Assembly (NCBI RefSeq): GCF_900156875.1 | Contig: NZ_LT707409.1 | Span: forward strand, 1,270,961 to 1,334,960 | Source of the DNA: Robertmurraya dakarensis | GTDB taxonomy: Bacteria; Bacillota; Bacilli; Bacillales; Cytobacillaceae | Direction: 5' to 3' | DNA: 64,000 nucleotides | Part shown: in pieces, positions 8,394 to 57,835 of the stretch | How positions within the stretch are numbered: position 1 is the first letter of the stretch | Layout: every line of letters begins with the position of its first letter | The notes under the pieces: model-generated | Seen by the model: only the letters and a program-made list of their open reading frames with translations | Told to the model about the DNA's origin: nothing | Database searches by the model: none | Translations under genes and position numbers: made by a program

Positions 8394-8468
8394 TTCTTAC
8401 TGAAAGGATCATTCAATAAACAAATTGTCGTAAAAGAATCCTAGCAGTGTAGTTTAAAAGATTAAGCC

Positions 8469-8562
8469 GTCTCCACTTCCCTACGCTAGTGCTAACTAGA
8501 TCAGGTTCAAAGGGATTAAGAAAACTCTTATCTCAGCCAAAACGGCACCCCTAGTGGACTTC
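8469..8562 (-). promoter_or_regulatory. TPP riboswitch (THI element) of tenA-ykoEDC
   Basis: The conserved THI-box blocks occur in order on the minus strand: GGGGTGCC, GGCTGAGAT, CCCTTTGAACCTGATC, then GCGTAGGGAAG. Closing P1 arms (AGTCCACT and AGTGGA) frame it at 8553-8560 and 8472-8477. The downstream terminator at 8365-8393 shows transcriptional control. Thiamine pyrophosphate should repress the uptake and salvage operon. Confidence 0.96.
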
Positions 8563-23738: not shown

Positions 23739-23763
23739 AATAAGCAATAAGAATCATCGTGAC

Positions 23764-23861
23764 TTCCTACTTTCCTACGCCGGTATTATCCGGATCAGGT
23801 CCAAGGGTTAAAAAACGTAACGTTTTTCTCTCAGCCAAAAATCTGGCACCCCTAGTAGTTG
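23764..23861 (-). promoter_or_regulatory. TPP riboswitch (THI element) of SDR-thiMDEW
   Basis: Minus-strand blocks in order: GGGGTGCC, GGCTGAGAG, CCCTTGGACCTGATCC and GCGTAGGAAAG, closed by P1 arms at 23854-23859 and 23766-23771. The optional P3 extension is a clear hairpin (AAAAACG-TTA-CGTTTTT). A terminator follows, so control is transcriptional. Confidence 0.95.
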
Positions 23862-24001
23862 TTGAAATATTCATTTACTAAATGATAGTACTCCCATTGG
23901 AAAAAGTAAAGGGATTTTTTGATTCTTCTAATTTTTTGGATTAGAAATCTACTGATATGATGGAGATGAAGGACAAATCCATTGTAAAACTTAAACTAAA
24001 T

Positions 24002-24649
24002 GGTCTTCATGCTCCGGATGAAGACCGTTAGTCCTATAAAACTTCATGCTTATGGTCTTCATTCAACAGATGATGACCGTTAGTCTTATAAAACTTCATG
24101 CTTATGGTCTTCATTCAACGGATGATGACCGTTTGCCTTTTAAAACTTCATGCTTATGGTCCTCATTCAACAGATGAAGACCGTTTGCCTTATAAAACTT
24201 CATGCTTATGGTCTTCATTCAACGGATGATGACCATTAGTCCTATAAAACTTCAGCCTCTTGGTCCTCACTCAATGGATGATGACCGTTTGCCTTATAAA
24301 ACTTCATGCTTATGGTCCTCATTCAATGGATGATGACCGTTTGCCTTATAAAACTTCAGCCTCTTGGTCCTCATTCAACGGATGATGACCGTTTGCCTTT
24401 TAAAACTTCATGCTTATGGTCCTCATTCAACGGATGATGACCGTTAGTCCTATAAAACTTCAGCCTTATGGTCCTCATTCAACGGATGAGGACCGTTTGC
24501 CTTTTAAAACTTCTTCCTCCTGGTCCTCATTCAACGGATGAGGACCGTTAGTCCTATAAAACTTCAGCCTTATGGTCCTCATTCAACGGATGAGGACCGT
24601 TTGCCTAAAAACCTTCATGCTTATGGTCTTCATTCTGCTTGCGAAGACC
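24002..24649. repeat. 13-copy 52-bp palindromic tandem array (array 1)
   Basis: Thirteen units start at 24002, 24054, 24106, 24158, 24210, 24262, 24314, 24366, 24418, 24470, 24522, 24574 and 24625: eleven steps of exactly 52 bp and a final one of 51. Each carries a 25-nt inverted repeat with nine-base arms GGTCYTCAT and ATGANGACC round a 7-nt loop, usually tcaacgg. Position 5 of the arms covaries in several copies (T-A in unit 1, C-G in units 10-12) and is mismatched in others. The last unit has a changed loop but perfect seven-base arms. Because 52 is not divisible by three, no frame stays open. It lies between the second TPP riboswitch and the stop of the GNAT gene. Confidence 0.95.
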
Positions 24650-49477: not shown

Positions 49478-49621
49478 TATAACTCTCTCCTTTGTGATAC
49501 AATTCAATCCATTAGTCGTATGGTACTGGAAAAAGTTACAACATTGTAGAAAATAGATAGTGTCGCTAGAATATATACTAGTCCCGTAGGGTTAATCCGT
49601 TAAAAAACTTTTAAGTGAATC

Positions 49622-50017
49622 TTTATTCTGGTTATGAAGACCTTTTTCCGGCTCGAGTCAAAGATAAACGGTCGTCATCCCTGTTATGAAGACCTTTTTC
49701 CGGCTCAACCCAAAGTTAAACAGTCGTCATCCCTGCTATGAAGACCTTTTTCCGGTTCTAGCCAAAGATAAACGGTCGTCATCCCTGCTATGAAGACCTT
49801 TTTTCCGGCTCAACCCAAAGTTAAACGGTCGTCATCCCTGCTATGAAGACCTTTTTTCCGGCTCAACCCAAAGATAAACGGTCGTCATCCCTGTTATGAA
49901 GACCTTTTTCCGGCTCAACCCAAAGTTAAACGGTCGTCATCCCTGCTATGAAGACCTTTTTTCCGGCTCAACCCAAAGTTAAACGGTCGTCATCCCTGCT
50001 ATGAAGACCTTTTTTCC
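49622..50017. repeat. 8-unit 52/53-bp palindromic tandem array (array 2)
   Basis: ATGAAGACC recurs at 49634, 49686, 49738, 49790, 49843, 49896, 49948 and 50001, spaced 52 or 53 bp; the extra base is a T in the T run. Seven complete 25-nt hairpins GGTCGTCAT-7 nt-ATGAAGACC start at 49670, 49722 (first base G to A), 49774, 49827, 49880, 49932 and 49985. The first unit is degenerate. Linkers alternate mainly between CAAAGTTAAAC and CAAAGATAAAC after a T run and CCGGCTCAACC. It lies between tatA (stop 50050) and the stalk-domain gene. Arm and loop sizes equal those of array 1. Confidence 0.93.
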
Positions 50018-50049: not shown

Positions 50050-50250
50050 TTATGACTTCTTCTCCGTGCTGGCCATTACCTCTTTTGCTTGATCAACTTC
50101 CTCCGAAACTAACTCGCGAGTGGATTTTTTAAATTCTTTCAGGGTCGATCCGAACGCACGGCCAATTTCGGGCAGTTTTTTCGGGCCAAAAATCACCAAT
50201 GCAATGACAAGAATCAGGATTAGACCTGGGATTCCAATATTTTGTAACAT
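50050..50250 (-). CDS. tatA: Twin-arginine translocase subunit TatA
   Basis: A 66-residue pore-forming subunit of the Tat system that exports folded proteins. One membrane helix (about 4-20, [17 protein letters not shown]) is followed by the diagnostic [14 protein letters not shown] hinge and amphipathic helix, then a charged tail. AAGGAGGAG precedes the ATG. It is the last gene behind phoX, whose product has a Tat signal, resembling the phoD-tatAd-tatCd arrangement of B. subtilis. tatC is not in the window. Confidence 0.93.
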
Positions 50251-57503: not shown

Positions 57504-57619
57504 TAATTACCCTACCTTTCTGTTGAAAATATTAAAAACGAGTTTCTCAGGTAAGGGAAACAAATAGATACGATTTTTCAATTATCGGCTAGTGCCAAAT
57601 TACTATTCTATCATACTGT

Positions 57620-57745
57620 TTCCTCTTCATCGCTTACGGGGTTAGCTTTCAGGTTAGGACTATGGGAAACAAGGAGCCCCTTCTAATAAAGAATTCACCA
57701 ATAGCGGAAAATTCCGCATACTTAATTTGGGTCCCCCGCTCTTAA
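57620..57745 (-). promoter_or_regulatory. Probable c-di-AMP (ydaO/yuaA) riboswitch
   Basis: The minus strand carries, in order, GGGGGACCCA (57728-57738 region), TTGGTGAATTC, GAAGGGG and CCTAACCTG, then AGCTAACCCCGTAAGCG (57631-57648 region). These match the conserved blocks of the ydaO-type aptamer, whose 3' end is a near-invariant AGCTAACCTCGTAAGCG. It lies about 120 bp upstream of the symporter start. A possible weak stem GTTTC/GAAAC with a GTTTTT tail follows and could be the terminator, competing with a GGAAAC/GTTTCC pairing. Confidence 0.75.
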
Positions 57746-57835
57746 AATAAGATTAAGCAAATATGGACCAACTAGATTTTATCATAAAATATCATATTAG
57801 TAATTTTTTTATTATTTCTGAATAACTTTTATACC

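Follow-up and report, generated by a model that had tools for sequence, protein, structure and literature searches.

What is the unit repeated in two tandem arrays of the Robertmurraya dakarensis genome, how widely does it occur elsewhere, and what might it do? The arrays lie in the window analysed here (a stretch of 64,000 nucleotides of contig NZ_LT707409.1), and the initial annotation had described the second of them as eight units at 52-53 bp that share a 9-7-9 hairpin and a core stretch with the first. The features are as follows:

24002..24649, no strand assigned: array 1, 13 palindromes, equal to twelve modules (24018-24633); outer arm of the last palindrome decayed
49618..49642, no strand assigned: leftmost palindrome of array 2, with an intact inner arm, ATGAAGACC, and a decayed outer one, AATCTTTAT
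49634..50009, no strand assigned: array 2, seven modules ATGAAGACC-N27/28-GGTCGTCAT (49634-49993), 7 bp apart, then a lone right-hand arm at 50001-50009
49670, 49722, 49774, 49827, 49880, 49932 and 49985: starts of the full palindromes of array 2

Between 49618 and 50009 there are indeed eight units, seven full palindromes and one degenerate left unit with an intact right arm (49618), separated in order by 52, 52, 52, 53, 53, 52 and 53 bp; Tandem Repeats Finder gave scores of 653 and 667. GGTCGTCAT-N7-ATGAAGACC occurs in six of the seven palindromes, the one at 49722 beginning with AGTCGTCAT (A at the first position), and the GATGAYGACCGTTT stretch is present in arrays 1 and 2. The period of array 1 is 52 bp, with a final interval of 51. 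The 9-7-9 geometry is common to both arrays, but the pairing is looser than described: position 5 of the arms fails to pair in every one of the seven units of array 2 (G-A) and, in array 1, in 8 of the 13, so the hairpin is imperfect. Both arrays are intergenic. Array 2 is flanked by the stop of a small ORF (50050-50250, minus strand), which we take to be TatA-like, beside a PhoX gene, and on the other side by a gene with a copper amine oxidase N-terminal-like domain; array 1 has the stop of a GNAT gene on one side and a TPP riboswitch on the other. The window carries two TPP riboswitches and one for c-di-AMP, all on the minus strand (8461-8562, 23755-23863 and 57616-57769), array 1 lying just past the second.

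The unit of these arrays is a 45-bp module, ATGANGACC-N27-GGTCNTCAT, and successive modules stand 7 bp apart, so that the palindrome is the junction of two neighbours. We read the module as arm-N27-arm because array ends keep the inner arm, solitary copies exist and arm-to-arm distances peak at 27: (i) one period outside the first full palindrome, the upstream ends of 98 readable arrays had only the inner arm in 47 cases and only the outer arm in 2, and the downstream ends of the same arrays in 51 and 1, both arms being present in 27 and 26 and neither in 22 and 20, respectively, with a background of about 7 percent per arm (the window's arrays counted twice). (ii) A few solitary or near-solitary copies, with 27 or 25 bp between the arms, occur in module-poor genomes (L225, L227 and L231), and the copy at L231 stands where two relatives have three and four modules. 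The search for such copies allowed 17-37 bp between the arms and is noisy, with matches in 70 of 193 genomes and, for the reversed control, once or twice each in 38 of the 193; since the control also matches, single matches of other lengths are read as chance. (iii) With no length imposed, arm-to-arm distances of 10-44 bp peaked at 27 (918) and 25 (119), the window being counted twice. The lesser peak corresponds to a second type of module, type B, in which N25 and a 9-bp spacer sum again to 52 and which sometimes shares a genome with type A (N27 plus 7). The inverted arms are 9 bp long, and are extended (GTTT/AAAC) in some genomes. At one locus (L148:440-1310), a type A array is interrupted at the centre of a palindrome by a type B array (9-bp spacer) together with about 55 bp of other DNA.

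The modules form a dispersed family. In the R. dakarensis genome the loose core GGTCNTCA-N5..13-TGANGACC gave 177 matches and its reversed control none, and nine loci were read as arrays, with 7 to 101 units each. A tandem pattern search, in which two neighbouring copies were required and periods of 40-67 bp allowed, returned at least 118 stretches, 107 of those listed being named as Bacillales, from genera that include Sutcliffiella, Neobacillus, Mesobacillus, Metabacillus, Ureibacillus, Lysinibacillus, Halalkalibacter and Ammoniphilus. Tandem copies are present in 35 of 193 genomes of the taxonomic family (one match in one genome for the reversed control) and in 27 of 397 genomes of the order (none for the control). 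The distribution is patchy within most genera, a single genus containing both G567 with 210 matches and G530 with none, yet 11 of the 14 genomes listed for one genus (g35) are positive. In the open-access PMC literature we found no published description of a family of 52-bp modules.

The period hardly varies. Of the start-to-start distances below 400 bp in the stretches listed, 465 of 547 are exactly 52 and 27 are 51 or 53, while 35 of the remaining 55 are near 104, 156, 208 or 260. In the main recount, from which duplicates were removed and 13 chance loci set aside (11 outside Bacillales, plus L160 and L186, the last of which may be genuine), a spacing of 52 accounts for 845 of the 952 module intervals below 260 bp, and 51-53 together for 898. 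The earlier proposal, a dispersed family of fixed period, is thus strongly supported by the core matches, the genome counts and the distances: neither a want of further loci nor random periods around a kept core appeared in the genome-wide and relatives' searches, and the distances are mostly 52 although 40-67 were allowed. Fifty-two base pairs are five turns of 10.4 bp. Other same-orientation spacings also fall near whole turns, namely 61-62 bp in L228, L229 and L230 (near six turns), which are few and partly related, and 94 bp (52+42) in six loci of a single genome, G201 (near nine turns), again partly related. A circular test gave R 0.36 at 10.4 bp (n 56, window counted twice) but 0.34 at 9 bp, and is suggestive of helical phase at most, being weakened both by the latter value and by the inclusion of near-52 values and chance loci. 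Counter-examples exist: L095 falls to 49-50 bp where the core is shorter, and some arrays run at 50-51.

Arms and linkers turn over at different rates. Within arrays (44 arrays, 479 units), the arms have a mean diversity of 0.04, against 0.14 for the inner linker and 0.17 for the 7-bp spacer, so that they vary about one third as much as either; the linker ends come to 0.09-0.12 and the free position 5 to 0.10-0.15. Three related genomes, 75-81 percent identical in the protein that flanks the array, keep the arms, the linker length and the GTTT/AAAC-like ends at orthologous loci, while the inner linker has changed. Across 12 comparisons of orthologous arrays, identified by flanking homology or shared neighbours, mean identity is 0.95 for arms and 0.68 for the inner linker, and in the four most diverged it is 0.94-1.00 and 0.32-0.42, respectively. 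Since modules were found by their arms, their persistence at orthologous places is a stronger fact than arm identity. The linkers of one array are near-copies of one another. Those of the two window arrays are unrelated, as was first noted, but several other genomes have different loci with clearly related linkers, so that arrays are not simply independent.

Base composition has a phase of its own. A/T content rises and falls in step with the dyad (z -11.5 over the linker and -8.9 over the inner linker, 108 arrays), values that are inflated because the arrays are partly related and this relatedness was kept in. All of the 27 genome groups have A/T-rich linker ends, and 24 of them an A/T-rich linker centre, which the R. 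dakarensis genome itself lacks. For 27 of 32 genome groups (window counted twice), a wedge model predicts more curvature than for units with shuffled linkers.

The arrays lie mostly in the DNA behind genes. By simple ORF calling, 107 arrays lie in 34 convergent, 67 codirectional and 6 divergent gaps; convergent gaps are over-represented (82 of 537 among array-free gaps, P 1.6e-4) and divergent ones rare (113 of 537, P 6e-5), and arrays lie closer to stops than to starts (medians 109 vs 193 bp). This bias fits both a 3'-end function and a tolerated repeat. A coding repeat was discarded, the arrays being intergenic with ORF overlaps that are small or in short ORFs, as was a phage-borne origin, the one viral-contig match having 56 bases instead of 60 and being read as chance. 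A blastn search for a plasmid origin found nothing with array 2 as query, a weak query since linkers differ.

A conserved DNA-binding protein had been expected to accompany the family, and none was established in a partial search that covered neighbour families, NERD genes and the Y1 transposase. Among 1043 ORFs near arrays, no recurrent close neighbour was listed beyond common families and a few NERD nuclease-domain genes. The latter make up 4 of 198 scanned neighbours, with a fifth 1099 bp from the L062 array; they stand next to or near arrays at L058, L062, L070, L134 and L155, in several genera, the one at L058 having been entered by hand after the cluster was seen, in place of the script's choice. 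The association is only a lead, because it is post hoc, and these genes are near-universal whatever the array status (191 of 193 genomes, with or without arrays; five in R. dakarensis). Y1 transposase (PF01797) likewise matched in 165 of the 193 genomes with or without arrays, and had no match in G186 (a single contig rated 100 percent complete with 13 contamination), an array-rich genome whose 61 tandem matches led us to reject mobilisation by Y1/RAYT. A universal nucleoid protein may be the binder, which would be compatible with these co-occurrence data.

In the comparisons that we made, the modules lack defining features of REP/BIME, MITE and CRISPR elements. The REPs of the GTAG and CGTC superfamilies are described by Di Nocera et al. 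2013 (PMC3733652, in whose main text the word Firmicutes is absent) as short, dispersed, intergenic inverted repeats, often paired, that lie between unidirectional and convergent genes and of which some bind proteins; they form hairpins of 20-40 bp that carry an unpaired GTAG or CGTC as a tag, and the GTAG ones accompany RAYT transposases. The modules are likewise short, inverted, dispersed and intergenic and share the preference for convergent and unidirectional gaps, but their arms are 9 bp long and 27 bp apart, they build arrays of up to about 100 modules with a fixed 52-bp period, and they lack both a conserved tag and, in G186, PF01797. In a position profile of 110 loop-7 arrays (window counted twice), no conserved unpaired GTAG or CGTC stands beside the palindrome, where there is only an A/T preference by the arms. 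As in MITEs, terminal inverted repeats are present (the 9-bp arms); a target site duplication was not seen, the 7-mers outside the ends of 30 arrays agreeing at a mean of 2.57 of 7 positions, a value without shuffled baseline. The pneumococcal BOX element is presented by Croucher et al. 2011 (PMC3049150) as a Gram-positive dispersed repeat with a variable number of tandem boxB modules, distinct boxA and boxC ends and a predicted RNA structure, enriched between convergent genes. The 52-bp modules are also tandem, dispersed, Gram-positive and enriched between convergent genes; compared by eye for ends of the boxA/boxC kind, the array flanks listed have half-palindromes, beyond which no common sequence is evident.

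Could the palindromes simply pair, on a transcript or as single-stranded DNA, and form a 3'-UTR structure, a terminator or a processing signal? We hold this to be improbable. Inverted arms placed after stop codons would suit it, as would the two window arrays, for which no terminator is predicted from the facing stop codon up to the array, the type B arms, which covary at positions 5 and 9 (12 arrays; window counted twice in the data set), and type A linker positions 1, 2 and 5, which pair above expectation (0.65 vs 0.40, 0.42 vs 0.31 and 0.54 vs 0.43). In the type A arms, however, none of the nine positions shows compensatory change, pairing nowhere exceeding the expectation for independent columns (0.51 vs 0.48 at position 5; 113 arrays), and linker position 3, A/T on both sides in most clusters, pairs below it (0.27 vs 0.47). 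Intrinsic terminators precede the array in 71 of 135 array-facing gene ends, as often as in controls (197 of 387); where 60 bp or more are available for one, the count is 68 of 106. An RNA role for the arrays looks unlikely because there is no compensatory pairing in the type A arms and because some half of the facing genes carry a terminator ahead of the array, and the linker and type B pairing leaves the odds of DNA versus RNA unchanged, since the dyad symmetry of a protein site would give such pairing too. Of the earlier suggestion that function is tied to the palindrome and its spacing, the spacing survives as a conserved feature, whereas the palindrome is a junction of modules whose type A arms pair no more than independent columns. 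A CRISPR-like array, which conserved arms and fixed-length linkers bring to mind, is far less probable still: linkers that repeat within an array, where CRISPR spacers are unique, refute CRISPR proper, and there is no cas family among the 25 families listed per search for 198 neighbour proteins.

We favour over these, at roughly even chances, the reading of the arrays as helically phased half-sites for a putative DNA-binding protein, whose binding, wrapping and role we infer. Each module would offer two inverted 9-bp half-sites, ATGANGACC and GGTCNTCAT, with 27 bp between them, and modules 7 bp apart would bring like-oriented half-sites to one face of the helix every 52 bp; the candidate protein would occupy them cooperatively and bend or wrap the DNA into a nucleoprotein block, set in mostly 3'-end intergenic DNA, that could serve chromosome organisation, topology or insulation. 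Plasmid centromeres, iterons and operator arrays repeat half-sites at regular spacing for proteins that bind cooperatively, and the 52-bp arrays may work like such phased strings; they differ in occupying many dispersed chromosomal loci with no linked binder gene found. The binding array is supported by the two types (27+7 and 25+9) that reach the same sum, by modules that persist at orthologous loci as inner linkers diverge, by the dominance of 52, by the low diversity of the arms, by the lack of compensatory pairing in type A, and by A/T phased with the dyad, predicted curvature and the terminators that precede arrays. Speaking against it are the missing partner gene, the patchy distribution and varying chromosomal position, the R. 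dakarensis linker centre that is not A/T-rich, the arrays at 50-51 bp, the type B covariation and type A linker pairing that a hairpin would also produce, the few and partly related near-whole-turn spacings other than 52, and a circular test both weak and unspecific. The main competitor, which we rate below the binding array, is a selfish or neutral repeat of REP or BOX kind, spread by a putative transposase or recombination, expanded by unequal exchange and tolerated at gene 3' ends, its fixed period merely inherited and of little host function. Patchiness agrees with such a repeat, as do linkers related between loci in several genomes, decayed array ends around near-identical inner units, the type B array nested in a type A palindrome and the excess between convergent genes, which is also reported for parasitic elements (PMC3049150). 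It accords less well with modules that keep their place and fixed length at orthologous loci while inner linkers diverge, with the lack of Y1 transposase in G186 or with the absence of a visible target duplication.

More tentatively, the arrays may represent an undescribed architecture element of many Bacillales, in which half-sites in exact helical register would let a protein assemble a wrapped or filamentous block between gene ends, the two types having reached the same period because the protein reads same-face spacing. If a protein does read this register, its binding fragment is present many times in each array-rich genome, so the protein can be fished out and deleted; the family would then give Bacillales a counterpart to BIMEs or to a nucleoid-organising system, and helical phasing could be tested on a natural example. 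Should the modules be selfish instead, half-sites and a 52-bp length that persist while the rest turns over would need an explanation of their own.

Among the matches listed, which leave out some R. dakarensis sites beyond 1.33 Mb, the R. dakarensis arrays lie at 0.30-1.32 Mb of the contig that carries dnaA (C11, dnaA at 3.60 Mb), roughly opposite the origin, a second contig (C10) having only two single core matches; those of G010 (3.24-4.13 Mb) lie on one chromosome arm within 1 Mb of the origin, and the modules of G186 at 0.39 and 1.35-2.65 Mb. No chromosomal domain relative to dnaA is common to the three among these matches; in R. dakarensis and G010 the arrays are clustered in one part of the chromosome, which differs between them relative to dnaA. 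One R. dakarensis array, 5.3 kb long with about 100 units (L063:3233-8506, on C11), has a higher-order repeat, in which one arm variant recurs in every third unit.
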